From a virus: DNA of 31,458 nucleotides. The notes under the pieces are model-generated. The model made no database searches. It had not been told where the DNA came from and worked only from the letters and a program-made list of their open reading frames with translations. Numbering within the stretch: the first letter of the stretch is position 1; every line of letters begins with the position of its first letter. Location of the stretch: positions 1-31,458 of IMG/VR virus record IMGVR_UViG_3300032229_000683; one strand, 5' to 3'. This document shows, piece after piece, positions 1 through 31,458 of this stretch. The position numbers and the translations under genes are program-made.

Positions 1-123
1 ACGTCAAGTAAGTACGACATGTGGTTAAGACAAGATACAAGGGATAAGTTAGTAATCTGGTCAAAACGCCAAAGCTGGTCGTCAGCCAACCTAGATATGG
101 CTGCATACCATCCCCAAAATTCC
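1..123. repeat. Terminal direct repeat, left copy (contig overlap)
   Basis: These 123 bases are identical to the last 123 bases of the window. A gene reads without interruption across the join, so the repeat is best read as the overlap left when a circular or circularly permuted genome is assembled. It lies inside a coding region, which argues against a packaged terminal repeat. The true unit length is 31,335 bp. Confidence 0.95.
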
Positions 124-703
124 CCAAAGCTATTCTGAGTTTCATTATCTTCCACAATCTCGGATTCTGGGAATAGAGTTGAGAAAGCTCTTGTAATCCC
201 CTTTCTAAACTCAATAAAAAAAAAAGCGATGACTCAACATACTTTACGGGAATGTCTTTCATCTCCTCAATTCTTTTTGGGAAATCACTATCAGAATAAC
301 TTGTACCTTCCTCTGTATATAGATAGGCTGCTAGTTCATTTAAGTTAGCAATTCTATATGCTTCATCTTTCTTAAGAAATGTTTCAATATCCACGAACTG
401 ACCAAATGAAATCTTGTTGAAGTCGACCAATTTATAGGTTATACCCTTGTGTTCAAACGTTGGATATAGTTGTCTTGTATCTTTGTTAAGATAGTCTTTT
501 AACTTTTCCCCAACTTCTGTTATTTGGCTTGCATCTGCTTTTAGAATATCTTCTCTTGATAAACCTGTTATAACAGAAATCATCTTGATGAACATTTCTT
601 CCTCATCCAAGAGCTCTTTGAACTTCATTACTTCAGACCATACTTTAATTGTTGGCTCTTGTAGAACATAATGTTCTCCGTTGTACTCAATAAATTCAAT
701 CAT
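1..703 (-). CDS. Tail assembly chaperone-like protein, N-terminal part (runs across the contig junction)
   Basis: The gene starts at ATG 703 (MIEFIEYNGE), 21 bases after the terminase stop, and continues through position 1 into 31335. It is split only by linearisation of a circular contig. In the starting frame it reads 252 codons to a stop at 31280. A -1 shift at the T10 run (mRNA sense, 225-216) gives a 247-residue product ending at 31296, six bases before the next ATG. The -1 product looks more protein-like at its C-terminus, with an aromatic FGEFWGWY motif, an amphipathic helix and a charged tail. The N-terminal half has features I associate with phage tail-chaperone-like proteins (TIKVWSEVMKFK, SVITGLS, ISFGQFVDIETFL). 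Its place right after TerL and ahead of the tail genes fits a tail assembly role. The chaperone assignment is an inference; that this is a real gene is much surer. Confidence 0.72.
   Translation of the reverse strand, partial: MIEFIEYNGEHYVLQEPTIKVWSEVMKFKELLDEEEMFIKMISVITGLSREDILKADASQITEVGEKLKDYLNKDTRQLYPTFEHKGITYKLVDFNKISFGQFVDIETFLKKDEAYRIANLNELAAYLYTEEGTSYSDSDFPKRIEEMKDIPVKYVESSLFFLLSLERGLQELSQLYSQNPRLWKIMKLRIALGNFGDGMQPYLGWLTTSFGVLTRLLTYPLYLVLTTCRTYLT
215..226 (-). other. Putative -1 ribosomal frameshift site (U UUU UUA)
   Basis: The mRNA carries C followed by ten U and then A. Counting codons from ATG 703, codons 160-163 read CUU UUU UUU UUA, so the heptamer U UUU UUA (221-215) sits exactly in the phase needed for simultaneous -1 slippage. 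It is the same heptamer as the HIV-1 gag-pol slip site. After slippage the reading continues AUU GAG. Polymerase slippage on the ten-base run, or a one-base sequence error, would give the same join, so the mechanism is not settled. Confidence 0.55.
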
Positions 704-724
704 AACTATTAATAAATATAATTT

Positions 725-1906
725 TTAATATACGTAAACCCCTGAATTTCTCATCATCTTCATTTGAAGCACATATCTGATTGCATCAAGTAAGTGGTTG
801 TTTTTATCTTCAGGTTCATCAAGGTTGTTTCCGTTCTTATCTGTCTTCCAAACATATGAATTTAATTCTTCAATTAAGTTCTTGGAATCCTGTTGAACAT
901 AAAATGAATTACGTTTAATTTGGTCAATACCTGATAAGATTGTATCCTTCTTCACTGGCTTAGCATTTATCCCCGCCCTGACCATTTCTTGTATTGCTTG
1001 GGGGTTAGCACTATCACATATAAAATCGTCTGTTAAATTGAGTCCTAAGTCCTTTATCTTATAAATGAAATCAGGAATGGTTACATTCCTTAGGTAAAGT
1101 AATTCCTTACAATAAATCGTATCATTTAGTCTGTGAATTGAAACAAGTGTTGTGGGGTCGTTATACCCAAAGTCAGCACCATATCCCAATAACTTTGCTC
1201 CTTGTGGTAATTCGTTGTAGTATTTTTGATGGTTAAATACAACTCTTGTGGGGACCCCTCTCTTACCCTCACCGAATACCTTCCATAAGTTTTGGTCTTT
1301 GTCTCGTAGCTTCTCGATTTCTTCAACCAGTGATGCTTCTAAGAATGGGTTGTCCTTATAGGTTACGACAGTATAGAACACATCATCTTGTCCTTCAAGG
1401 TCATATATCCATGAGTTCCATAACGAGGGGTTAAGGTCAATAACAATCCTTCCTGAAGTTCTTAGAGCTAATTGAATATACTCATCGTATGATACCTCAG
1501 TTGCTTCGTTGATGAATAGGTAATCTCTTTTTCTACCTCTTAGTTTTGTTTCATCATCGACAGAGAACCATTCAATTATGTTTGTTCCAAGTTCATAATA
1601 ACCATCAACTGAATGCCACTTCTCAGGTTCATACACCCCAAACTTAATTAGTAGTTCTTTTAGGTCTCTTAGGATTGAACCTTTAAGTGCTGGTAGAGTC
1701 TTTCTTACAATGGATAATACTTTGTCTTCTTTTTGCAATAGGTCTGCAATAAAAAACAAAAGTATGTTATAGGTTTTACTAGCTCTTGAACTACCCTGAA
1801 ATACACAGATTCTTTTATCCGTTGATATTAAGTCTTGGAAGACTCTCGTCGTTTGTAGTCTCAGCGTCTTTCTTTGATTCGTAATATCTTCTCCAAAGTT
1901 CATCAT
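725..1906 (-). CDS. terL: Terminase large subunit (ATPase plus nuclease)
   Basis: Packaging motor of 393 aa that drives DNA into the prohead and cuts it. The N-terminal ATPase has a P-loop at residues 38-45 (GSSRASKT, K44), a Walker B at about 128-134 (DYLFINE, catalytic E134) and a following DLNP motif at 157-160. The C-terminal RNase H-like nuclease has its three acidic positions in GADFGYNDPTT (D245), FICDSANP (D298) and NHLLDAIRY (D374). Order and length fit the Terminase_3/phage_term_2 type. The P-loop departs from the usual GGxRSGKT, with serines at the second and third positions. No in-frame ATG lies between the start at 1906 and the P-loop, so the long overlap with the preceding 61-aa gene appears genuine. 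The tail gene at 703 follows after 21 bases. Confidence 0.95.
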   Translation of the reverse strand: MMNFGEDITNQRKTLRLQTTRVFQDLISTDKRICVFQGSSRASKTYNILLFFIADLLQKEDKVLSIVRKTLPALKGSILRDLKELLIKFGVYEPEKWHSVDGYYELGTNIIEWFSVDDETKLRGRKRDYLFINEATEVSYDEYIQLALRTSGRIVIDLNPSLWNSWIYDLEGQDDVFYTVVTYKDNPFLEASLVEEIEKLRDKDQNLWKVFGEGKRGVPTRVVFNHQKYYNELPQGAKLLGYGADFGYNDPTTLVSIHRLNDTIYCKELLYLRNVTIPDFIYKIKDLGLNLTDDFICDSANPQAIQEMVRAGINAKPVKKDTILSGIDQIKRNSFYVQQDSKNLIEELNSYVWKTDKNGNNLDEPEDKNNHLLDAIRYVLQMKMMRNSGVYVY

Positions 1907-9064: not shown

Positions 9065-10258
9065 TTAACCAGTTATATTTTCTTGTTTATCTACACCGAC
9101 AACTTCTTCTTTATTAACATCAACAGTTTCAATTGGTGCTTTATCAGGAACTGTTACCATTTGGAATTGTTTAATATCTATCTCTGCTGGCTTCTTATCT
9201 CTAAGTAATAATAACTTTTCGAATACCTTTTTAATCTCTTCTTGGATTGGTTTAATAACCAAGTGTTGGAAGTGGTCCTGAGCTTCTAAGTGGTCTGCAG
9301 AACCAAGTCTTCCTGGAGTTTGTATACCAAGTAATTCAGGAGAACTAATTTGATGTGATGTAAGAATTGCCTGTTGAACAGAATCACTCATTTCCAGCCA
9401 CATCTTATCTGAACCATTAGCGGCGATTGTTGTAATATCAGGTGCTTCTTCTTTTGAATTAGCGAATGTAAGCATCAATTTTCCTGGATTGTTGGATGAG
9501 CTATACTTCGCAGTTAAAGTTTTGTAAATCTGTTCTCTTTCTTCAGGACCAGGAACCCCGTTATTTAGAGATATAAATAGACTTGGATTAAGACCATTTA
9601 TAATATTTGAGTGCCACCAATTGTATACTTCTACTTCTGTAGAAATTGCTGTTGCTCCACCCCAATATGAAGGTGTTGCATAATATTCGTTACCTGGCGA
9701 ATGTGTTGTATAATAGAAAACTTGTGATGGTTCAGGTGATTCCAAACTAAATGATGGGATTATTCTTGGTGGAAATTTCTTTGGATATACCCAATCACTT
9801 GAATAGAAGTAGTTAACAACTCTATCATTAATATCTGCTCTTTCAGCTCTTAGTTTTGATGTATCCATTGCATACATTTCAAAACCTAAATCTCTATCAC
9901 GACGCCATACGATGTTGATACTAAATGCACCATAGAGAATAAAATCTAGTGTTGCTCTATTCCACAAATCATATACTGTCTCACCAAGTGAATTAGCCAT
10001 TTGTAGTCTTTGATTATCCCCGTCTTTGAGAGATATTTCCTCTCCCCTAACACCATACCATTTGGACATTACACAGGCTCTATGAGTCGGAGAACTATTA
10101 TAAAGACGAATTAATTCTTGTGGTGCAAGATTTGCAATACCATAAAATACCCATGGCGTTCTATTGTTTAATGCTGGTTGTTCTTCAATGATTGGAACTC
10201 TAGCAGTCATGAAATCAAAGACCTCAAAAATTCTTTCGTTATTTTTTTGTTCACTCAT
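9065..10258 (-). CDS. Portal protein (HK97 type)
   Basis: 397 aa, within the range for short HK97-type portals. It would form the dodecameric ring at the head vertex through which TerL pumps DNA. Supporting features: a wing and stem region with LAPQELIRLYNSSPTHRACV (about 44-63), a beta-rich part with FILYGAFSINIVWRRDRDLG (about 106-125) and a clip/crown segment near the end with ISSPELLGIQTPGRLG (about 302-317), then a helix HFQHLVIKPIQEEIKKVFEK. These are hallmarks of Phage_portal proteins. The last 35 residues are charged and probably disordered. Unusually, the gene lies downstream of capsid and tube genes rather than beside terL. Confidence 0.88.
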   Translation of the reverse strand: MSEQKNNERIFEVFDFMTARVPIIEEQPALNNRTPWVFYGIANLAPQELIRLYNSSPTHRACVMSKWYGVRGEEISLKDGDNQRLQMANSLGETVYDLWNRATLDFILYGAFSINIVWRRDRDLGFEMYAMDTSKLRAERADINDRVVNYFYSSDWVYPKKFPPRIIPSFSLESPEPSQVFYYTTHSPGNEYYATPSYWGGATAISTEVEVYNWWHSNIINGLNPSLFISLNNGVPGPEEREQIYKTLTAKYSSSNNPGKLMLTFANSKEEAPDITTIAANGSDKMWLEMSDSVQQAILTSHQISSPELLGIQTPGRLGSADHLEAQDHFQHLVIKPIQEEIKKVFEKLLLLRDKKPAEIDIKQFQMVTVPDKAPIETVDVNKEEVVGVDKQENITG

Positions 10259-12358: not shown

Positions 12359-13399
12359 TTAGTTTTGAGCAAATTGTGCTCTTAATCTTTTCCACCCCTC
12401 AACTCTTGAGTTCACAGGTTTTGAAAAAGTATCTTGGTTTAATTGTTTTGGAACTTTTGCTCCTGCTGGTTCACTAGAAAACTTTTTGAATTTTGCTTCC
12501 AAAACGTCATATTTCTTTTCCATTGAATCTAGCTTTGATTCCAAACGCTTCATTGCTTCAGCAAATGCGTCTGTGAATGCTTTCATTTCATCCATCTCTG
12601 GTTCTTCAACGTTTTCACGTTCAACGATTTTTCCGTCTTTAACCATAACACGAATTTTTACTTCGTTGCCTTCTGAATCTTTCAACATGATTTGATGTTC
12701 CCCATCAGGTGCTGGTGACTTCTCACCATCTTTAACGACATCAATTGTTTCACCAACATCGAATGTTGGAGAGTCAACAATTGCACCATCATAGGTCTTC
12801 GCTTCCACAAAAGCTTCAGAATGTGCTTCTCTTTTGAATTTTCCGCCTTCCATTTCTTTTTCTTTTTTAGACATAATACCTACAACCTGTCCTCCAGTGA
12901 TAGTAATAACTTCACCAGATTTCGTTTCAAAATCACCATCATGTATTGCAGATAATGAACCATCATATCCAACCTTCTTAACACGAACACCTTCTTCTAA
13001 AACATCCATAGACATTCTAAGAATTGTTCCGTCAACAAGTTCGATATCACCTTTTGCTGAGTGTGGTGGAATTTCTTTGCTTTCAGCCATTGAGTCTTCT
13101 TTGGTTACGATTTCTTCCTTCTCGATTTCTTTTTTTGCATCTTCGGTTTTACCCATCTTGATTTTGGAAACCATACCCATTTCATCAACTTCAATTTCTG
13201 AACCATCTTCCATCATATACACTCCTGCTGGTGCTGGAATCATACCTTCATCTGTAGCAACGTATAACACCTTTCCAACTTCCATATCCTCTGATTCCAT
13301 TTTCATCGTTAACCCTTGAGAGGTTTTTGCTTCATAGAAATTTTGAGAAGTGAAGTTCAAAATCGTCATAATCTTTTTGATTGCTTCTTTACTGGTCAT
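12359..13399 (-). CDS. Scaffold-like capsid assembly protein
   Basis: 346 aa, very acidic and Lys/Glu/Met-rich with few aromatics. It has repeated small beta units built around DG turns (AIHDGDFETKSGEVITITGG; VKDGEKSPAPDGEHQIML; VKDGKIVERENVEE). A coiled coil of about 40 residues follows near the C-terminus (AEAMKRLESKLDSMEKKYDV) and then a short basic tail (SRVEGWKRLRAQFAQN). Charge, the DG-type repeats, the coil and the basic C-terminal end that could bind capsid protein fit an assembly scaffold that the prohead protease removes. Its start overlaps the end of the protease gene by 11 bases and the capsid gene follows at once. Confidence 0.72.
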   Translation of the reverse strand: MTSKEAIKKIMTILNFTSQNFYEAKTSQGLTMKMESEDMEVGKVLYVATDEGMIPAPAGVYMMEDGSEIEVDEMGMVSKIKMGKTEDAKKEIEKEEIVTKEDSMAESKEIPPHSAKGDIELVDGTILRMSMDVLEEGVRVKKVGYDGSLSAIHDGDFETKSGEVITITGGQVVGIMSKKEKEMEGGKFKREAHSEAFVEAKTYDGAIVDSPTFDVGETIDVVKDGEKSPAPDGEHQIMLKDSEGNEVKIRVMVKDGKIVERENVEEPEMDEMKAFTDAFAEAMKRLESKLDSMEKKYDVLEAKFKKFSSEPAGAKVPKQLNQDTFSKPVNSRVEGWKRLRAQFAQN

Positions 13400-14891
13400 C
13401 TTTGATTGATTTAAGTAATTTTCTTATTTTGTTTATTTGTTTGTCTTCCTTCGAGAAAAATGCTTTTTCTGCGAATAATCCCTCAACTGAGAAACCAGTT
13501 AGAGATTTCTCCTTAATCATTTTCCATATCTTATCATCTTGTACCTTCATTGCAACATACCATGTACCTGCAGGAAGCTCAAAACCATAGAAATGAGATT
13601 TATCAAGGACTGGGTCTTCAGACACCCAAGATTCAGTAATGAATACTTTATCAGACCCAAGTTTTTTACCGTCATGCTCAACTGAGGTTTCATCTGTACG
13701 CTTCTCTCTAAGAAACTTATCAGCCATCATCTTAATAGATTTCTTTGAAAAGAAAACATAATAGAGATTCCCCAAGTCATCATAACGATGAATCATTTTA
13801 TTTGGCACCATTGCTGCTCCCACCAAGATTCTTTTCTCTTCGTCAAAAGAAAAAACCATCTTCTCTTTGCTAACTTGCTCAAGTTTTGATTCAGCCCATT
13901 TAAGTGCTGACTCACCACCCCAAGCATCATACATTAATTTTCCACATCCATCACCATATTCTTTGGAACTTGTAAGGTCACTCTTGTGTCTTGATAAATA
14001 AGAATACATGCGTTTCACCGTGTCTATTGAGATGTTTTCACCCTTACTTAACTGCGATGCTCTTTGCTTTCCCACACCTGTTCCACAAGAACCCCAACCA
14101 TTTTCCTCAGCATATTTAACAGCTCTCTTAGCTGCGTTTTTAACACTCTCAGGATAGTCAGATATTGTCTCTGCGAAATCCTCAGGTGCTAAATTCATTT
14201 CATCGAACTTACCTTGTCTTGGAGCAACTGTTCCTCTTTGGTCTTGAGGTACAGTATTTGGTTGTAATTCAGGTCCAAGTCCTTCAACACCTGTAACACC
14301 AATTCTTGATGATGCATTGTTAATGATTGTTCCCTGTCTTTTATATAGTAGTCTTACCCATACGTGTCTACAGTTAAATGAACCACGCCATAGGAAGATT
14401 GAATAGTATCCGAATTCTGAATTGGCTACCTGTGCTGTTAATTGGTCAATATCTTCGATTCTATAGACTCTGTTTTGAGCCATCATATCTGCACAGAATT
14501 GTCTATTTCTTTCGTCTTGAGGACCCACATACTTAAATCTTACTCTATATTCATCTGTATCTAACTCTGAATTTTCATTGGGAGCTGATGTAATGAATTT
14601 TTGATTCCTGTTTGTAATCTCATTAATCTTTTGTGGGGTCATCTTTTCAACCTTAACAATTTCCCAACCCTCGTCGATTAATTGTGAATAAGGTTCACCA
14701 AGACTTTGAAGTGATGGTAAAGTATTACAGAAGTCTTCAGGCACAACTTTGTAAGGAGAATATTCATCTTCCTTATTGAATGCGTGCCAAGTTTCTTCGT
14801 GTGCTGGCTTGGATACTAAAGAAATAGCTTCAATTCCAGCCTCTTCGTAAGTCTCGTCAATGAAGAGTTCTACAATTTTGGTTTTATCCAT
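13389..14891 (-). CDS. Prohead protease fused with head-morphogenesis domains
   Basis: 500 aa, several parts. Residues 7-38 (ELFIDETYEEAGIEAISLVS, then KPAHEETWHAF) resemble the start of XkdF-type prohead proteases. Residues about 115-185 hold QFCADMMAQNRVYRIEDI and a FLWRGSFNCRHVWVRLLY Cys/His segment as in Mu F/SPP1 gp7-like morphogenesis proteins. Residues 249-335 hold a Cys-rich domain (NGWGSCGTGVGKQRASQLSK ... YGDGCGKLMYDAWGG) known from phage head proteins. Residues 345-476 are the protease core with VEHDG (H406) and TGFSVEG (S468) as likely catalytic His and Ser. The protease thus seems interrupted by about 300 residues. It cuts scaffold and capsid parts during prohead maturation. Overlaps the scaffold gene. 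Confidence 0.75.
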   Translation of the reverse strand: MDKTKIVELFIDETYEEAGIEAISLVSKPAHEETWHAFNKEDEYSPYKVVPEDFCNTLPSLQSLGEPYSQLIDEGWEIVKVEKMTPQKINEITNRNQKFITSAPNENSELDTDEYRVRFKYVGPQDERNRQFCADMMAQNRVYRIEDIDQLTAQVANSEFGYYSIFLWRGSFNCRHVWVRLLYKRQGTIINNASSRIGVTGVEGLGPELQPNTVPQDQRGTVAPRQGKFDEMNLAPEDFAETISDYPESVKNAAKRAVKYAEENGWGSCGTGVGKQRASQLSKGENISIDTVKRMYSYLSRHKSDLTSSKEYGDGCGKLMYDAWGGESALKWAESKLEQVSKEKMVFSFDEEKRILVGAAMVPNKMIHRYDDLGNLYYVFFSKKSIKMMADKFLREKRTDETSVEHDGKKLGSDKVFITESWVSEDPVLDKSHFYGFELPAGTWYVAMKVQDDKIWKMIKEKSLTGFSVEGLFAEKAFFSKEDKQINKIRKLLKSIKDDQ

Positions 14892-14929: not shown

Positions 14930-17752
14930 TTATATCAAAGAACGTGATTTAATTGTTCTATCGAATTGTTGTTGGTTAGACATTTCATTTGCAACCACAT
15001 AAGTTTTAATAGGTCTCTCAGTCATTCCTGCTAAAAGGTCTAAACCACCTGTTGTAGGTGCACTTTCAGGAGTAACGGGACCTCCTAAAGCAAATTGTAA
15101 TCTTGGTTGTTGTCCAGCAGAGTTGATTGCATTTAGTAGTCCACCAAACATTGATGTGGACCTTGCATTAACAACAAATTCCCCATTGGAGAGCATTGCT
15201 GGAATTGAATCTGATGTTCCTGTACCTTGACCTGAAACGAATCCACCTCTTGCACGACCACCCGCTTGAACCTGTATTGGTCCAACAGGAGTTGAGCCAG
15301 GAGGAGTTTGTCCTTTCGAACCACCATCACCCCCTGGAATCGGTGTTGATAAGATTTTTCTAACTTGAACAAAACCAACAAGACCTGTAGCTATAGCTTG
15401 AGCAATTGCAAAACCAGGAATTGGAACACCTGCGAATGCTTTCAATTGACCTGCAATGGCTGCATAGGTATTGATTAAGGTAGCTGCAACCGCAAAAGCT
15501 TTACCCGCTCTTGTTTGTTCACCTACAATATTTGATAATGACGATAAACCTGAACCGATAGCTTGGAATAAAGCTATTTGTGATTCAAGTTCTGCTTGTC
15601 TAATTGAATTTCTTGCATCACTAAACTCTTTGATTCTTTGGTTATATTCCTCTTCTGTAATTTGTTTTTGTTGAAATAAATCCTTTGTTCTTTGAATCTC
15701 TTGATTGTAAAGCTCCTGTTGTTTTGTATAATACTCAGAATAGGTTAATTCACTATTCATGAGTTGATTATCAATCTGAACTAATTCGTCAGCAATTCTT
15801 CTATCATTGAGTTCGAGGATTTTTGCATTAGTATCTTCAACAATCTTTAATTTCTCAGCTGCTGTATAGTTTTCAGAATTAACAATCTGTTGTTGAAATT
15901 CTTTATATAATTGAATCTGAACTTCAAAATTTCCCTCATTAGCTGCAATATCAGCAACTAATTTATCTTCACGTTGTTTGTTTTCTAAGTCTCTAATTTG
16001 TTGGTCATACTTCGCAATCAATGCTTGTCTTTCCTCAAGTAATAACTCTGTATTTTCAAGTTCAATATCCCTCTTATGTAATAATAATTTCTTTAGTCTC
16101 TCAACATCCACTTCAGCGGCACTCTCTTCTTTCTCAATGATTGCATCAATACTTCTAATTCTTATATCTGTGTTCCTATCTATGTCCTCTTTCAGAGCCT
16201 CAGTTAACTTATCTTGGTTTTCTTGTTGAGCTAAAAGTAATTGTGCACCAGTCAGTTTTTCGAGGTCTAATCTTTGTTTTTGAAGTTTCTCTAATACATC
16301 TTTTCTTGTGGTTTCACTTCTTATTTCTAATTCAATTTGAGCATCAAGTTCAGCTTTTCTTTTTGCTAATGCATCAGCTGCATCTTTGTCTCTTTTCTCT
16401 TTGTTCTTCTGAGCATTAGCTTCATTTTCCTTATTGATTGCAGCTCTGTTTTCTGCTTCTAAAACTCTATATGATGATAGAGCATTTCTTGTATCTTCAC
16501 CTCTCTTGGTTAGGTTATCTCCTAATTTTTTTAATGTCTCTTGGTCGGCTTTTCCAAGTGCATTATTATATTGTCTTATAGCTTCTTTCTCATTATCAAA
16601 TGCTCTACTATAAGAATCATATCTATCCTTGAGTTGTTGTCCTCTGATTTGTTTTTCAGTTGCACCAGTAGCTTTTAGATTTGCAATTCTCTCTGCATTT
16701 GCTCTCTCAAAAGTAGCTTTATCTAACTCGATTAATTCGTTTGTTCTTTCTAACTCGTCATTGAGTTTTTTCTGTGCGGCTTCAGCTTCTTTTGTTGAAC
16801 TAGCCCACTCAATAACTTGACTAATAAGTTCACCTATGAGTACGATAATAGCACCAATACCAAGTGAAATTAAAACACCTTTAAGAACACGACCTGCAGT
16901 GGCTGCTGCCGTTTCAGCTGCGGCTAAAGCTGTATTAGCCGCGGCATTTGCACTTGCTCCTGCTGCTGCACCTTTTTGAGCAACAGAATTTTGTTGTTGA
17001 ACCCCTGTGTTAACTTCAGTTGCTGTGGTTGAAGCTTGTAATTCTTGATATTGCTTACTTAATGCGGCTCTTTTTTTATCAAACTCTTTCTGAGACATCT
17101 GAGAAACATCTATATTACCCATTTGAGTTTTTATATACTCTTGTTCTGACTGATTCAATTTACCAATTCCACCAGTCAACTTCTCTTGGTCTGCAATAAG
17201 TTTGTTTTCGGCTTCCGATTTTTGTTTGGTAGCCTCTGTTAAGTTTTGTAATTGAGCTAAAGCACCAATGTTAGCAGCCTGATTCGCATCAACAGCGGTT
17301 GTTAAATTATCAGTCTTACTAGCGAGATTATCATTAGCATCTGCAGCTTTGTCTGCAACCTCACCAATTGAACCAATAGAAGCAAATACCTCTTTTAAGT
17401 CTCTACCCAAACCAGCAAATTGTGATTGTAGGTCTGATAACTTAAACTGAGAAAAAGTTTTAAGTAAGGAAATACCACCATCCAATTTGGAAGATATCTC
17501 ACCAATTGGACCAGGAAGTAAACTAAATGAATTGAATAGTTCACCTGACCTTGCTTTCACAGACCTTAACTGGTCTTGAGTATCATTTAATTTCTTTGAT
17601 AATACTTTGAATGATTCAGAGCTTGGGTCAACATTCTGAATTTCTTTGGATAATAATCTTATTTGTTGTTGTAATGATAAAACTCTGTCCGTCGCAAACT
17701 GGACGTCTTTGCTTTCAACATCAACAACGACTTCTATTCTTCTTTCTGCCAT
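14930..17752 (-). CDS. Tape measure protein
   Basis: 940 aa. It sets tail length and helps to pass DNA through the host envelope. The N-terminal 70 residues form a coiled start (VLSLQQQIRLLSKEIQNVDP). An Ala-rich stretch and a membrane-like helix follow (about 290-312, KGVLISLGIGAIIVLIGELI), then a very long charged coiled coil (about 320-740), a second hydrophobic region (about 757-806, AAIAGQLKAFAGVPIPGFAI), a Gly/Pro-rich segment, and a conserved-looking GEFVVNARSTSMFGGLL near the end. At roughly 0.15 nm per residue, the usual rule for tape measures, the tail would be near 140 nm. It is preceded by a 49-aa gene and followed by the head genes. Confidence 0.9.
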   Translation of the reverse strand: MAERRIEVVVDVESKDVQFATDRVLSLQQQIRLLSKEIQNVDPSSESFKVLSKKLNDTQDQLRSVKARSGELFNSFSLLPGPIGEISSKLDGGISLLKTFSQFKLSDLQSQFAGLGRDLKEVFASIGSIGEVADKAADANDNLASKTDNLTTAVDANQAANIGALAQLQNLTEATKQKSEAENKLIADQEKLTGGIGKLNQSEQEYIKTQMGNIDVSQMSQKEFDKKRAALSKQYQELQASTTATEVNTGVQQQNSVAQKGAAAGASANAAANTALAAAETAAATAGRVLKGVLISLGIGAIIVLIGELISQVIEWASSTKEAEAAQKKLNDELERTNELIELDKATFERANAERIANLKATGATEKQIRGQQLKDRYDSYSRAFDNEKEAIRQYNNALGKADQETLKKLGDNLTKRGEDTRNALSSYRVLEAENRAAINKENEANAQKNKEKRDKDAADALAKRKAELDAQIELEIRSETTRKDVLEKLQKQRLDLEKLTGAQLLLAQQENQDKLTEALKEDIDRNTDIRIRSIDAIIEKEESAAEVDVERLKKLLLHKRDIELENTELLLEERQALIAKYDQQIRDLENKQREDKLVADIAANEGNFEVQIQLYKEFQQQIVNSENYTAAEKLKIVEDTNAKILELNDRRIADELVQIDNQLMNSELTYSEYYTKQQELYNQEIQRTKDLFQQKQITEEEYNQRIKEFSDARNSIRQAELESQIALFQAIGSGLSSLSNIVGEQTRAGKAFAVAATLINTYAAIAGQLKAFAGVPIPGFAIAQAIATGLVGFVQVRKILSTPIPGGDGGSKGQTPPGSTPVGPIQVQAGGRARGGFVSGQGTGTSDSIPAMLSNGEFVVNARSTSMFGGLLNAINSAGQQPRLQFALGGPVTPESAPTTGGLDLLAGMTERPIKTYVVANEMSNQQQFDRTIKSRSLI

Positions 17753-17908: not shown

Positions 17909-20900
17909 TTAATATTTTAATCCCCATTTATTCTTCAAGTAATTGAGTAGGTCAGTAGTTTCAGTAGATGTTAATTCTCTTGTAAACATCAGGATTTCAC
18001 CCACCTGTGATGTAAATGTTGAACCAGGCGATGCTTGGTTAAGAATGTTCAATGTTGAAGCTTGTGGGTCACCGTTAAATACTGCATTTGTACAAGAGGA
18101 ACCAGCTACTGTTGTTTCTGTTGCTGCTGAGCCGTTGAATGAACTATAACTTACTCTGGTAGATGCAGATGTAGAAACATATTCAAGATATGTCTGACCT
18201 GTGCTTGGTCTGTTAGTCAAACTACAATCTATTCTACAATATCTTCCTGTAGGACCATCGTAGAATGCTTTTCTTGTTGAGGTAGCCGATGATTGTCCAT
18301 AGGTATCATATGCACTTCCTAAACCACTTTCTGTCCATCTATAATCCCAATAAGCATTATTGTCGTTATTACCAATCACAATCACTCTTGTACAATTGGT
18401 CATTGCAGTTGTTGAAATATTAGATGTTAACCAGTTATCACCTGTTGTTACAGCACTTAGTCCTGATGGGAACTGAGTTGATGCAGACACTGATGGTTGG
18501 TTAGCTTGAGTTGTTTGAGTAAATGCTGTTAGACCTCCATATACACCTTTGTTTGTAATTCTTTCCAAGAAGTTAGTACCTGTTCTGAAAGTCATTGTGG
18601 ACGTATCAGAGAAGTCAACCCAAATTACTGGATTTAGACTTGATGGACTGAATGTTGGAGTAGATGTAGGAGTTCTTGTTAATGTTGGTGTTATAGAAGC
18701 GGTAGGTGTTTGAGTAGCTGTTGTGGTATTTGTTGGCGTCATTGTTTGAGAAGCTGTGATACTCGGAGTTGGACTATTAGATGGTGTTAAAGTCGGAGTA
18801 GCAGTTCTTGTTGGTGTTTGTGAAGGAGTAGCCGTTAATGTTGTTGTAGTTGTAGGAGTCTGAGTTTGAGTTGTTGTATTTGTTGGTGTATTAGAAGGTG
18901 TTAGAGTCGGTGTTGCAGTATTAGTAGGTGTAGGAGTAGGTGTTGGACATAATCCCAAGAAAGTAGCTGTAAATGAGTTTACACCATATACCCTAACAGG
19001 TAATGTTCTTGAACATCTTTCAACTGTTGTTAATGGACCTAAGTCTTCAGTAATTGTTGCCCCATCAGAACATCTTGTATAACTAAATCCAAGTGTACCT
19101 GATGATGAAGAGTTTTCACAACTGTAGTTATTACATGCTGGTACCGATGGACTTGGAGTAATCGTAGTTGTTGGAGTAACTTGTGGTGTTCTTGTTTGTG
19201 TTGGTGTTATGGTATTTGTTGGCGTCATAGTTTGAGATGCAGTAATACTTGGAGTAGGAGTATTAGTTGCAGTTCTTGTGATAGTAGGTGTCTGCGTAGG
19301 AGTAGCAGTCAACGTAGTAGTCGTAGTCGGAGTTGGTGTGGATGTTCTTGTGTTAGTCGGTGTTTGTGTAGGCGTTGCAGTAAGCGTAGTTGTAGTAGTA
19401 GGCGTTTGAGTAGATGTTTGAGTATTAGTAGGAGTCTGAGTTGGAGTTGCGGTTAAAGTCGTTGTAGTAGTAGGCGTCTGAGTCTGTGTTGGTGTTGTAG
19501 TTGGGGTTGGGGTAATACAATTAGGAGGTACACAACCACTATTTTCCTCTTGAACTATTTCACCAGCTAATCCCACTTTTATCCATCTATTCAAGTTTGT
19601 GAATTGAACTAAGAAGGTATTGTTAGGAACAGGTATTGTGATACCAGCATCTAGGTAAACATATTCCCCAACATTAAGAACAGGTCCTGAAACAGGTGAT
19701 GAATAAACAGTAACAGTTCCTGCAGAGAAACATGCAGGACACTCACTTGACCCTGAATAACATTGATAGGATAGATATGCAATCGTTTTAGTTGGAGTAG
19801 GAGTTGTGGTGTTAGTTGGCGTTAAGGTATTAGTAGGAGTTTGTGTTGCAGTCTGAGTAGGAGTTGCAGTCAATGTTGTCGTAGTAGTTGGCGTAGGTGT
19901 AGTTGTCGGAGTTTGGGTTGCAGTTGCAGTTAATGTAGTTGTTGTTGTAGGCGTAGGACTTGATGTCTGCGTTGGTGTTGCAGTCAATGTCGTTGTAGTA
20001 GTAGGAGTCTGTGTTGCAGTCTGAGTGGGAGTTTGAGTAGGCGTAGCAGTTAGCGTAGTTGTGGTTGTAGGGGTTTGGGTTGTTGTTTGAGTGGGAGTTT
20101 GTGTTTGAGTTGGAGTTCTAGTAGCAGTTAGCGTAGTTGTAGTCGTAGGAGTTGGTGTAGAGGTTGTTGTACTTGTTGGTGTAAGGGTTGGAGAAGCGGT
20201 TATGCTCGGTGTTGGGGTAGCAGTAGGACATATAGGTGGATATGCTATATAAGAAACAATACTAAAATTATTCTGTAATCCTGTTGCTGGATATACATAA
20301 TCCCCAACTGTTATTCCACTATTTCTAAGTGGATAATCTTCTAATATATTAACACTAGCAGGTCCATCGAATAATGGTATATTACTTCTAAACCCACTCC
20401 ACTCTGTATTACCATTAAGGGTTCTTATAATTGTGAAATAATTAGGCGCAACATAATATTGATATACAGGGTACTTTTTACCATCTGTTGGGAATAATGT
20501 ATTAGGATAAGGCGTTCCATATGTAGTTGTAGTTCCTGATTCATCCCAATATCCATAGTCGAATGTGCCACCTGTATAAGTGTGTAATCTTGGATATATT
20601 GCATCGGGAAAATCTAATGGATTACCTGAGAATGATAATTCCTCAGGACAAGCAGGATATGGTGTTTGTGTTGGCGTTTGTGTAGGAGTTCTAGTTTGAG
20701 TTGGTGTAACACAATTTGTTGGATATAATATATCACCTAAGATATAGTTACCTTCTTCAGGTAATTTCTTTAATAATATTGAGAAGTAGGTTGCATCTAG
20801 TTGAGCTGAATTGTCCAAAACCCCGCCATTATTAATTGAAGCTCCTGTTGTTTGATATATCGCAGAATTTTGTAATGAACCAGTATTATTGGATTGCCAT

Positions 20901-21550
20901 ATAACGTTTGTGAATGTGGTTCCTGATTGGCATACATAAACAGCATAACTTTCACCAAGTGGTGTAGAACCATTAACCCAATTTGAGAAGAATGTGTTAT
21001 AGTATCCAATACCTGAATAAACATAAGGACCTGTTGGATAATCAAATCCACTTGGGTTATCTATAAATGTGAAACTCAACATACAACTCGGTAAGGGGGT
21101 CATTGACGGAGTTAATGTTGGAGAAGGTGTTACAGATGCTGTTAATGTTGGGCTTGGCGTTAAAGTTGGTGATGATGTAATTGTTGGTGTTGCAGTATTT
21201 GTAGGAGTAGATGTTGAAGTCGCTGTTGGACTTGGAACAGGAGTTCTTGTTTGTGTTGATGTTGGTGTAAAAGTTGGTGTATTAGAAGGCGTGCTTGTTT
21301 GCGTAGGAGTCTTAGTAGGAGTTACAGTTCGTGTTGGTGTTGTAGTCTGTGTTGGAGTTGCAGTTGGGGTTGGTGGAATGCAAGGAGCTTCAATATCCAA
21401 ATCCCCACACACATAGATTGGTAGGTCAACATTCATACAAATTGCTTGACCCACTGCAAGTGTAAAACCTGATGCTCCTGAATAACACGTTGTACCAGAC
21501 ATGAAGACTGGTTCTGAGGTGTTATTTACATATACGTAACATTCTGCCAT
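17909..21550 (-). CDS. Large stalked adhesin with C-terminal LamG-like domain (receptor-binding candidate)
   Basis: 1213 aa. A Cys-rich N-terminal module (1-58, [10 protein letters not shown] ... SGTTC) is paralogous to the start of the 300-aa gene that precedes it. Then Thr/Pro stalks alternate with globular modules: stalk 60-155, module 156-280, short stalk, module 300-441, long stalk 442-587, a Cys module, stalk, a second Cys module, and a last stalk. The end (about 973-1213) begins [10 protein letters not shown] and closes [20 protein letters not shown] followed by [11 protein letters not shown], the hallmark of LamG/concanavalin-like glycan-binding domains in Bacteroidota and their phages. 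It probably projects from the tail tip and binds host surface glycans. The unit [10 protein letters not shown] occurs about nine times in the stalks. No enzyme motif seen. Confidence 0.8.
18640..18947 (-). repeat. Thr/Pro stalk repeat, segment nearest the LamG domain
   Basis: Coding repeat on a 6-base period (Thr at every second codon). Plus strand is G/T-rich. It links the last Cys module to the LamG-like domain of the 1213-aa protein and contains [10 protein letters not shown] and [14 protein letters not shown] units also present in other stalks. Confidence 0.85.
19145..19514 (-). repeat. Thr/Pro stalk repeat, third long segment
   Basis: Encodes alternating Thr residues between two Cys modules of the 1213-aa protein. 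Contains three spaced [10 protein letters not shown] units separated by TPTNT-type spacers, so the repeat has both a 6-base period and a longer higher-order unit. Confidence 0.85.
19790..20227 (-). repeat. Thr/Pro stalk repeat, longest internal segment of the 1213-aa gene
   Basis: About 145 residues of threonine-alternating sequence with five [10 protein letters not shown] units. The repeats differ at third codon positions, so they have diverged and are unlikely to be an assembly artefact. Confidence 0.85.
21086..21373 (-). repeat. Thr/Pro stalk repeat, N-terminal segment of the 1213-aa gene
   Basis: About 96 residues after the first Cys-rich module. More Ser and Pro than the later stalks (TPSPTLTPS) and no [10 protein letters not shown] unit, so the stalks are not all recent copies of one sequence. 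Confidence 0.85.
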
Positions 21551-21572: not shown

Positions 21573-22475
21573 TTAGAGCGGAACACAACTTCCACCTGTA
21601 CAAACATATATTCCAAGTATTTCTCCACTACCATCAATATCTGCTATTCTGAATGGTCCACTTGTTGTATCAGTTGATACATTTGAGTAAGCCAAATAAC
21701 CTGATTGACCAGCATATCCATAAATGAAATCCCCAATTGTTAATGAAAAATAACCCTGACTAGCACAGTCTTGAGTTGAAATATTATAGTTTGTATTACA
21801 ATAGTCAGAACAGGTGAAAAGTATTGCACCATGCGTATAAACAAATGTTGAACAAGGTGGTGTTGATGTTGGCGTTGGTGTAGGATTTGGTGTTGAACCA
21901 AATGTAGGGGTTGGACTAGCTGTCGGTGTCGGAGTTGCTGCTTGTGTTCTCGTTGGAGTAGGAGTTGCCCCTTGAGTTCTTGTAGGGGTTTGCGTAGGAG
22001 TTGAAGTAGGTGGAGGTGTAGTTCCAACTGTTGAACTTGGGGTCATTGTGGGGGTTGTGGTAATCGTTGGCGTAGGTGTTGGAGTAACACAAGCTCCACT
22101 TATAGTTACTGATATCTCATTTACGTTATAAACTAAAGAACCTTCCCTACCACAAAAAGATATTGTCTCAAGTTCACCAGGATTCATCGCAGGATTATAT
22201 AGGTCTTGAGATTGAGAAACACCTTGGCAATCAGTCCAAGCGATTGGACTCATCAATAAAAATGTTGGTAATTTGGTTGCAACATAATTAAAACAACTAA
22301 CACAAGATTCTGAGATATAGAAATTATTACAAGCAATTGTTGGGTCAATAGAACTTAAACATATAGAATCCCCATATGTTAAATTAGTTGACGTAGGTGT
22401 TCCATCACAGGTTGTTCCTGAGATGAATTTAGTAGTTCCAAATTCTTGGTTTATATAGTTGTAACAATTACCCAT
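21573..22475 (-). CDS. Stalked Cys-rich virion protein (paralogue of the 1213-aa adhesin)
   Basis: 300 aa. The N-terminus (MGNCYNYINQ ... FISGTTCDG ... GDSICL) aligns with the start of the 1213-aa protein. A second Cys module (about 58-129; IAWTDCQG, ISFCGREG, SGACVT) closely matches a module near the end of the 1243-aa protein. A Thr/Pro stalk (131-207) leads to a C-terminal Cys-rich domain with six cysteines (208-300). No membrane segment or signal peptide, as expected for a virion protein. It starts 8 bases inside the end of the 1243-aa gene and is followed by the adhesin gene, so the three share one transcript. Likely a tail-tip or fibre component; details unknown. Confidence 0.72.
   Translation of the reverse strand: MGNCYNYINQEFGTTKFISGTTCDGTPTSTNLTYGDSICLSSIDPTIACNNFYISESCVSCFNYVATKLPTFLLMSPIAWTDCQGVSQSQDLYNPAMNPGELETISFCGREGSLVYNVNEISVTISGACVTPTPTPTITTTPTMTPSSTVGTTPPPTSTPTQTPTRTQGATPTPTRTQAATPTPTASPTPTFGSTPNPTPTPTSTPPCSTFVYTHGAILFTCSDYCNTNYNISTQDCASQGYFSLTIGDFIYGYAGQSGYLAYSNVSTDTTSGPFRIADIDGSGEILGIYVCTGGSCVPL
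21855..22085 (-). repeat. Thr/Pro stalk repeat in the 300-aa gene
   Basis: 77 codons, looser than the other stalks, with RTQAATPTPT-type units. Same 6-base period and strand bias as in the neighbouring gene. Confidence 0.8.
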
Positions 22476-29228: not shown

Positions 29229-31289
29229 TTATATTAAATTCCATTGTTGATTTTCGTTATTCCACAAATCACCATTTGTATTCCACAATTGTGCAACAGC
29301 TGGTGTACGAGTTGGAGTAGGTGTATTGGTTGGTGTTTCTGTGTTTGTAGGTGTTTGTGTTATTGTTGGCGTTTGAGTTGCTGTAACTGATGGTGTATTG
29401 GTTGGTGTAGATGTTATGGTTGGTGTTTGTGATGCTGTGATTGTAGGAGTATTTGTAGGGGTTTCTGTAGGTGTCTTTGTTGTTGTTACAGTTGGTGTTT
29501 GTGAAGCAGTTAGTGTTGGTGTCTGAGTAACTGTTGGTGTTGTTGTTGGTGTTTGAGATGCTGTAATAGAAGGTGTAGGTGTCTGCGTTTGTGATGCAGT
29601 TATACTTGGTGTAGGTGTAGAAGTATTTGTAGAAGTCTGAGTTGGAGTAGGTGTTTTTGTTTCTGTTACAGTAGGAGTTTGTGTAGTTGTATTAGTTGGT
29701 GTCTGTGTAAGTGTTGGCGTAGTAGTTGGTGTCTGAGATGCAGTAATAGAAGGTGTTGGTGTTGAAGTTTGTGTAGGAGTTTGAGTTGGAGTCTTAGTAG
29801 GTGTTGGAGTATTGAATGGTCTAAATGCTGCATCACATCTATCAAGAGAATCCATTACCTCAATTGATAATGTTGCTGTCCATCCCCCAAGCAAGTCATC
29901 AAACTTCTCAAGAAATGGTGTACAAACAACGGGTGTTTTTAGATAATACTTCTCATTAAAATTCCCAAGAGCATTAGTTACAGATAGTCTAAACTGACCA
30001 ATGATATCATCCATTATCTGATTGGTATCTGATAGGACATCTGTTTGATTTACTAAGTCCCTTTCAATAATGTCTGCAACAATTACTTGGAATTGATAGG
30101 TCATAAGTCCAAATTGTTGTTGCACATTACCAGGAACAACATACATAAGTGGATAGTAGGGTGATTGATAGTGTTCGTTTTCTTCTTTGTCTCTTGACTC
30201 GGTCCAATATGTGAAGTCTTGATATGAACCAAAACCAAATGATTTTAACTGCTTATGATGGTCAGCTAATAATCTAAAGTCATCATGGAATGTTTTGAAG
30301 TTGATTGTCTGATGAACAATTGGGGTACCAGTAAAAGTATTGTAGGCTGCAGCACATCTATCAAGACTAGTCATTGTCTTAATCTTTAGAAGTCCTGTCC
30401 ATCCGTTTAACAGGTCATCATATTTCTCCAAAAATGGAACACATGATACTGAGTCATCCAAATAATATTTGTCGTAGTAATCGCCCTGTATTTGACTTAC
30501 AGACAATCTGAACTGAGAGATAACATCTTGTAGAATCTGAAGGGTATCACTTGAGATATCTGTTTGATTATTCAAATCTCTTTCCAAGATATCTGCAATA
30601 ACTGTGTTGAAGTTCCATGTCTTGAATTGAAGATTGTTTTCTACAGTTGAAGGGACAACATATAGAAGTGGATAGTAAGGAGATTGTGAGTGCTCGTTCT
30701 CTACATTGTCTCTGAACTGAGTCCAATAAGACATCTGATTGATATCCCCCAAACCAAATGAATTAATTTGCTTATGAGCCGCAGCTAATCTTTGAAAATC
30801 ATTAGCTAAGGTTTTGAAGTTAATTTGTTTTGGTGTCTCACTTGGGGTAGGTGTTGGCGTAGGAATATTTGGTGTTCCTGTATTCGTAACAGTTTGTGTT
30901 GGTGTTACATCAGGTGTGGGAGTTTGTGTGGGTGTTTCATTTGGAGTAGGTGTAGGTGTTGGGGTTTCATTGGGAGTAGGTGTTGGAGTGGGACCATTAA
31001 CACAACTCATAAAACCAGCACCTTGAGGGAAACCTCCTACAATATACCAAGTTGCAAATTGATTTGCACCAGGGTCATATAGATTGGAATAGTATCCATC
31101 TCCAACGAGGATTGTAAGAGCAGGGTCAAGAAATACTTGTTGAGATGTAGTTAAACAAGGCCAACAAGTAAAACTTGGGGGACAGGTAAAACAATTTGCA
31201 TCATCAGCATACACATTAAAAGATGGTGATGTTAAACATGCGTCAACCTGAGTTGAACCTGATGATACTAAAAATGTTACTACTGCCAT
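29229..31289 (-). CDS. Stalked virion protein with a tandemly duplicated tail-terminator-like domain
   Basis: 686 aa. Residues 1-99 form a Cys-rich N-terminal module ([13 protein letters not shown]). A Thr/Pro stalk (100-154) follows, then two copies of one domain: 156-316 ([20 protein letters not shown] ... [10 protein letters not shown]) and 329-490 ([20 protein letters not shown] ... [10 protein letters not shown]), starting 173 residues apart. Each copy has the SPYYPLxYVVP, DxxERDLxNQTD and SQFRLSV/GQFRLSV motifs of small tail proteins that usually stand alone. A long stalk (493-664) leads to a Trp-rich tail ([20 protein letters not shown]). It begins 6 bases after the -1-frame stop of the chaperone-like gene. 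Role of the single domain is probably tail completion; the fusion to stalks suggests an exposed location. Confidence 0.78.
29298..29813 (-). repeat. Long Thr/Pro stalk repeat in the 686-aa gene
   Basis: 172 codons with Thr at nearly every second place and several [17 protein letters not shown] units. These are shared with stalks of the 1213-aa gene almost 10 kb away, which suggests exchange between the genes. Confidence 0.85.
30828..30992 (-). repeat. Thr/Pro stalk repeat, N-terminal, in the 686-aa gene
   Basis: 55 codons with [10 protein letters not shown] units repeated in tandem. It joins the N-terminal Cys module to the first copy of the duplicated domain. Confidence 0.85.
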
Positions 31290-31295
31290 AATTGT

Positions 31296-31458
31296 TTAAG
31301 TTCCTTTCTGAGCTTCTTGTTTTCTTTGTTGATAAACGTCAAGTAAGTACGACATGTGGTTAAGACAAGATACAAGGGATAAGTTAGTAATCTGGTCAAA
31401 ACGCCAAAGCTGGTCGTCAGCCAACCTAGATATGGCTGCATACCATCCCCAAAATTCC
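31296..31458 (-). CDS. C-terminal end of the chaperone-like gene (-1 frame)
   Basis: This is the right-hand piece of the gene that starts at 703; bases 31336-31458 duplicate 1-123. In the -1 frame it contains the WGWYAAISRLADD segment and ends with QKGT and a TAA at 31296-31298, just ahead of the ATG at 31289. In the unshifted frame the reading stays open as well and stops at 31280-31282, overlapping the next gene by 10 bases. The -1 frame is preferred because its residue mix is normal for a soluble protein, whereas the other frame is rich in Leu, Thr, Tyr and Cys. Confidence 0.65.
   Translation of the reverse strand, partial: EFWGWYAAISRLADDQLWRFDQITNLSLVSCLNHMSYLLDVYQQRKQEAQKGT
31336..31458. 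repeat. Terminal direct repeat, right copy (contig overlap)
   Basis: Exact copy of positions 1-123. Removing one copy joins the gene that starts at 703 on the minus strand to its 3' end at 31296, directly ahead of the next tail gene. Confidence 0.95.

Follow-up and report, generated by a model that had tools for sequence, protein, structure and literature searches.

A strict T9/T10 tract behind the terminase gene as candidate slippage site for two C-terminal isoforms of a probable phage tail assembly chaperone

The window analysed here is the complete IMG/VR virus record IMGVR_UViG_3300032229_000683 with its 31,458 nucleotides. Its first 123 bases are identical to positions 31336-31458, and with this 123-bp terminal repeat the record is most simply read as a complete circular genome of 31,335 bp. 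The gene described below crosses the junction of the circle, where base 1 is followed in its reading direction by base 31335. It belongs to a tailed phage whose hosts are probably Bacteroidota. The following features are referred to in the text:

1-123, no strand: direct terminal repeat, copy 1, identical to copy 2
31336-31458, no strand: direct terminal repeat, copy 2, identical to copy 1
725-1906, minus strand: terminase large subunit gene terL, adjoining upstream gene (phrog_2, E 2e-33; synteny)
226-703, minus strand: N-terminal part common to both products, codons 1-159 (ORF; matches to phrog_166, Pfam Phage_TAC_7 and by fold)
216-225, minus strand: T10 slippage tract, exactly 10 T (A10 on the plus strand)
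224-218 and 221-215, minus strand: heptamers U_UUU_UUU and U_UUU_UUA in the T10 tract
1-225, minus strand: doubly coded stretch, part 1, with the zero-frame tail and the -1 tail (FFFIEFR...WGWY...), crossing the circular junction
31280-31458, minus strand: doubly coded stretch, part 2, containing both stops (31336-31458 repeats 1-123)
29229-31289, minus strand: downstream gene of 686 aa, annotated without a function, its first 10 bases overlapped by the zero frame
14930-17752, minus strand: tail-length tape-measure-like gene (phrog_25241, E 6e-15, and ten other tape-measure families)

The chaperone-like gene starts with the ATG at 703-701 on the minus strand, directly behind terL, which is its upstream neighbour in most relatives as well. 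From here it is about 13.5 kb in the direction of transcription to the tape-measure-like gene with its start at 17752. This arrangement agrees with a preliminary description of the window, which had placed the gene right after terL and the tape measure more than 13 kb further on.

Two further families recur within the window. The portal family phrog_33693 (560 positions) is matched by two genes, with positions 12-338 in the gene at 9065-10258 and positions 336-513 in the gene at 13389-14891 (both minus strand), where the phrog_33693 segment is followed by a head-maturation-protease-like part; in this phage the portal may be divided between two genes, its C-terminal half being joined to the protease. 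The family phrog_15511, of unknown function, is matched by three proteins encoded on the minus strand at 29229-31289, 21573-22475 and 17909-21550, which perhaps have a repeated structural module in common.

Codons 160-163 of the chaperone-like gene read CTT TTT TTT TTA (226-215). The preliminary description had reported U UUU UUA at these codons in the phase for -1 slippage, and this reading holds, with a run of exactly 10 T. On the circle the -1 frame leads to a product of 247 aa, which includes the sequence FGEFWGWY and ends with TAA at 31298-31296, six bases before the ATG of the downstream gene at 31289. The unshifted product comprises 252 aa and ends with TAG at 31282-31280, 10 bases inside that gene. 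Both ends, as well as the WGWY motif, had been given correctly in the preliminary description and are recovered on the 31,335-bp circle. Each C-terminus contains peptides unique to it, for example LADDQLWR in the -1 isoform and GLQELSQLYSQNPR in the unshifted isoform. When synonymous codons are shuffled in a set of 138,430 coding codons, most of them belonging to terminase genes of related loci, T10 should occur on the sense strand about 0.4 times by chance.

Scanning with the window protein led to six distant loci and a wider scan to further families. In each of the six distant loci a zero-frame ORF with a T9 tract is overlapped by a -1 ORF with the [WY]GW[YF] motif. In addition, three terminase queries (window, P12024S and L008), which are blind to the tract, gave 80 loci each, and all ORFs of all loci were searched with a profile of the N-terminal part only. 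This search resulted in 259 matches, 249 of them scorable; the ten matching ORFs without a T-run are cut by contig ends. The scorable homologues comprise 213 unique sequences, which form 115, 84 and 37 lineages at 90, 70 and 50% identity. At the end of the shared part all 249 carry a run of either nine (n=140) or ten (n=109) T's, while runs of 7, 8 or 11 T at the tract are found in none of them. An apparent T7 case (L229) was a wrong pick, the true site being T9. The search for homologues that encode the protein in one continuous frame without the run yielded none, split frames and a T-run being present in every scorable case.

The run is placed in three codon registers, namely TTT TTT TTT G, NTT TTT TTT T and NNT TTT TTT TT. 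Those runs that start later reach further in the 3' direction and those that stop earlier start earlier. On the tree at least five changes of length and at least four changes of register are found in the T-run, the length always remaining at 9-10.

A protein search revealed the same layout in two cultured phages, Nonlabens phages P12024S and P12024L. At their loci (L015 4935-5629 and L016 2935-3629) a T9 tract joins the two annotated halves in the -1 frame, P12024S_38 corresponding to the unshifted product and P12024S_39 to that portion of the -1 tail which has been annotated. In the public annotation of both phages the fusion is missed. The joined protein of the window gave no match in a tblastn search against cultured phages and the -1 tail alone, used as a query for close relatives, gave none either; relatives were obtained by means of patterns from the N-terminal part together with terL synteny, alignment A2 being too diverse for scanning collections. 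No prophage relatives were found in two scans of genome contigs. At three loci (L214, L240 and L263) the place directly after terL is taken by an ORF of about 180 aa that looks different, has no T-run and is not matched by the N-terminal profile. A distant homologue of the N-terminal part (E 5e-5) is gp10 of Flavobacterium phage 6H (L276 10352-10927, minus strand), which is without a T9 run and has a -1 ORF directly downstream.

Ten-base homopolymers are error-prone in some technologies, and the preliminary description had considered a one-base error in the run, with a true gene continuous over 11 T. Such an error of sequencing or assembly can be dismissed in practice: all 249 scorable homologues, which come from many metagenomes, show the same frame relation and T9 or T10, two separately sequenced cultured phages share the layout, and selection on the zero-frame tail, described below, would make no sense under it.

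The -1 tails of 37 non-redundant lineages of the window clade have a mean pairwise identity of 52%, with FFF, G, Y, L and N-H as invariant positions. Across lineages a [WY]-G/S-W-[YF] C-terminal domain is kept in the -1 frame, and the WGWY motif is common to this tail and the distant families. The structure model of the tail is poor (pLDDT 54). The stretch could in principle be a separate gene with its own start, as in the public annotation of P12024S and P12024L, where two genes are given at the locus. However, between the preceding -1 stop and 25 codons past the slip site an in-frame ATG is found in only 10 of 84 lineages (51 of 84 if GTG and TTG are counted), and the conserved -1 sequence begins at the T-tract itself, which makes a separate gene very improbable compared to a fusion with the N-terminal part.

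The zero frame behind the tract remains open for 82-89 codons in all 37 window-clade lineages and its stop lies within about 32 bases of the -1 stop. The preliminary description had regarded such openness as unlikely by chance, which is borne out by synonymous shuffling as well as by the presence of the arrangement in every scorable relative. If the -1 protein is recoded synonymously with ordinary codon usage, the zero frame stays open with P<=0.01 in each of the 37 lineages and with a probability of 0.0007 in the window. With the biased codon usage of the tail itself, a usage that is in turn shaped by stop avoidance, the value for the window is 0.07 and those for the 37 lineages are 0.02-0.26. 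Among 16 independent pairs, only 2 changes that create a zero-frame stop are seen as compared to about 20 expected, whereas 11 changes are silent in both frames where 2.4 would be expected.

The best control for dual coding is provided by relatives with an earlier zero-frame stop, where the overlap can be compared with the zone beyond the stop of the same genes. Third positions of the -1 frame change at roughly half the rate within the overlap that they show beyond the zero-frame stop, both for long zero tails (0.055 versus 0.096 per codon) and for short ones (0.088 versus 0.150). Furthermore, zero-frame replacements are depleted among the changes that are silent in the -1 frame (omega 0.14, p=1e-4; omega 0.11, p=9e-7), the same measure being 0.45 (p=0.08) in the window clade alone. 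The long zero tail has a single origin on the tree. The unshifted product is modelled by AlphaFold2 at good confidence (pLDDT 80.6), with helices in the tail. This tail is more hydrophobic than its synonymous recodings in 22 of 37 lineages, the window not among them, in a comparison that is not conditioned on stop avoidance and forms the basis for no membrane claim. Aligned in both frames, the homologues thus display conservation in either one, and judged by these substitution patterns the same DNA is under purifying selection in both. We regard the frame transition as real, conserved and functional, and predict that one gene encodes two C-terminal isoforms over the doubly coded stretch. The tract with its conserved length, the two open frames and the conservation and selection acting on both are evident at the level of sequence; that both proteins are made we infer from them, and likewise the level at which the slippage takes place.

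As to the function of the protein, the N-terminal part matches phrog_166, labelled 'tail protein' (E 2.5e-6), in 23 of 37 clade members, and shows a sub-cut-off match to Pfam Phage_TAC_7, the P2 gpE-type tail assembly chaperones (E 0.006). By fold it matches predicted viral proteins in BFVD that carry the name tail assembly chaperone, with E values of 0.012-0.2 and probabilities of 0.98-1.00, one of these matches aligning 75 columns at 2.6 Å. No PDB entry is matched, either by sequence or by fold. Other families of the group match phrog_32199, a family of unknown function, over the N-terminal part, and this is the commonest PHROG match of the relatives. Taken together, the weak profile matches, the fold matches and the two-isoform layout make it likely that the window gene is a tail assembly chaperone.

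Alternatively, the two isoforms could be real and the protein something else, for example a neck or packaging factor, in line with the weakness of the profile matches, the location beside terL and tail-completion-like genes, and the prevalence of phrog_32199 among the relatives. The 'tail protein' family, the trace of TAC_7, the folds of named chaperones and the two-isoform architecture itself speak against this alternative, which we consider rather unlikely. A position directly before the tape measure gene is a usual, although not absolute, feature of chaperone genes, and the 13.5 kb that separate the two genes here depart from it. The gene is filed here as one that works like a G/GT-type chaperone, not as a proven member of that class.

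With regard to the level at which the frame changes, purely ribosomal -1 programmed frameshifting on U_UUU_UUU, with U_UUU_UUA as a second in-phase heptamer in the window, would correspond to the situation in lambda G/GT and P2 E/E+E', and the studied tail-chaperone cases cited in PMC5009743 are all ribosomal. An in-phase U_UUU_UUU is indeed found in every homologue. However, this heptamer comes automatically with any run of at least nine T's in every register, so that its phase is uninformative and constitutes weak evidence. Many relatives have T9 followed by GG, AC, AT, CG or GC and do not contain U_UUU_UUA. It is the length of the run that is conserved. From the G/GT-like mechanism proposed in the preliminary description, the conserved -1 transition (249 of 249) to an extended product, probably in a chaperone gene, and the coding character of both frames are strongly supported; the HIV-type U UUU UUA finds no support as the key element.

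Seven T's suffice for ribosomal slippage, yet 7 or 8 T's are found in none of the 115 lineages, and even lineages with the register that needs the fewest T's (NNT TTT TTT) still carry 9-10. A stimulatory RNA structure, a frequent though not obligatory companion of ribosomal -1 sites, is not apparent near the tract, where no consensus pairs are detected and the mean fold z scores over 82-84 lineages are -0.06 and -0.12 downstream and 0.13 upstream. Since the run keeps its length in all three registers and no RNA structure is seen at the site, the polymerase is at least as likely to slip as the ribosome. In the other long genes of the loci A-runs of at least nine are strongly avoided (2 seen, about 23 expected); T-runs of this length give low numbers (1 seen, 4.6 expected). 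Length nine is where a large share of bacterial genomes begin to show selection against A/T runs, and known polymerase-slippage genes use such runs, T. thermophilus dnaX for instance A9 (PMC1088944). On the other hand, the hydrophobic residues encoded at the slip site (V/L/I, F, F, L/F) would lead to a preference for T on both sides of it in any event, so that the run length does not cleanly prove slippage by the polymerase.

A stop in the +1 frame within four codons past the tract is present in 77 of 84 lineages, compared to 52.5 expected (in the window within 205-215), and at one arginine of the -1 frame near the tract AGG is strongly preferred over AGA in the 84 lineages. The excess of +1 stops was dropped as support for polymerase slippage, as it can be forced by coding in the zero (L-G) and -1 (F-R) frames, and it is probably a by-product of coding in these two frames.

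On balance we lean slightly towards the insertion of one extra U by RNA polymerase at the T9/T10 tract, whereas frameshifting by the ribosome alone is given somewhat less than an even chance; both processes may act. The wider proposition, that in a large phage group with mostly uncultured members the proportion of the two chaperone isoforms is determined by polymerase slippage on a strict T9/T10 tract in place of ribosomal frameshifting, and that the unshifted isoform of one clade has evolved a full-length C-terminal domain of its own, encoded by the DNA that also encodes the shifted one, comes close to even but stays below it.

In the proposed mechanism, slippage at the T10 tract would move a fraction of the products to the -1 frame after a shared part of about 160 residues. 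An unshifted isoform of 252 aa with a helical, basic C-terminal tail would thereby coexist with a shifted isoform of 247 aa, nearly equal in length, that carries the WGWY domain, and the two would be the counterparts of lambda G and GT. Both of these lambda proteins bind the tape measure, and the T portion of GT brings in the subunits of the tail tube (PMC5009743). By analogy, the isoforms of the window phage would chaperone the tape measure and recruit tail-tube subunits. The explanation as a whole, a chaperone-like gene after terL with two C-terminal isoforms generated by slippage on T10 as a G/GT counterpart, we hold to be very probable.

Among the closest known systems are phrog_32199, which covers the N-terminal part, and gp38 plus gp39 of P12024S, which belong to the same gene family as the window gene and have been annotated as two unrelated hypothetical proteins. 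The fusion protein had escaped notice both in hundreds of phage contigs and in the two phages in culture, the annotation of which is hereby corrected, and with P12024S and P12024L isolates that carry the site are at hand, which renders it directly testable.

Two-isoform tail chaperones are textbook examples of ribosomal recoding, and the frame slip itself is known from lambda. Lambda gpG/gpGT and P2 E/E+E' give rise to a short and a -1-shifted longer product with a common N-terminus and overlapping frames, a layout that the window gene resembles. In contrast to these, the unshifted tail of the window is about as long as the shifted one, is encoded by the same DNA and is itself under selection; furthermore, the group has a strictly fixed T9/T10 tract at the slip site, and the gene is located after terL, 13.5 kb away from the tape measure. 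New are the strictness of the tract, the ending that is doubly coded with selection acting on both frames, and the post-terL position far from the tape measure. A phage tail chaperone described as using polymerase slippage was not found in searchable open-licence papers. In potyvirus P3N-PIPO, overlapping frames likewise supply alternative C-terminal tails to a single N-terminus, the second frame being reached by polymerase slippage, but there it is an RNA virus polymerase that acts on another motif in an unrelated protein. A long A/T run at the frame change that is kept in homologues is likewise found in T. thermophilus dnaX (A9), in Shigella mxiE, where an added U in a U run fuses two frames, and in IS elements (PMC1088944, PMC5009743). 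With a homopolymer of fixed length built into a chaperone of this design, polymerase slippage could do the same job as the ribosome, which offers a natural comparison of two slippage mechanisms, as has been carried out for dnaX.
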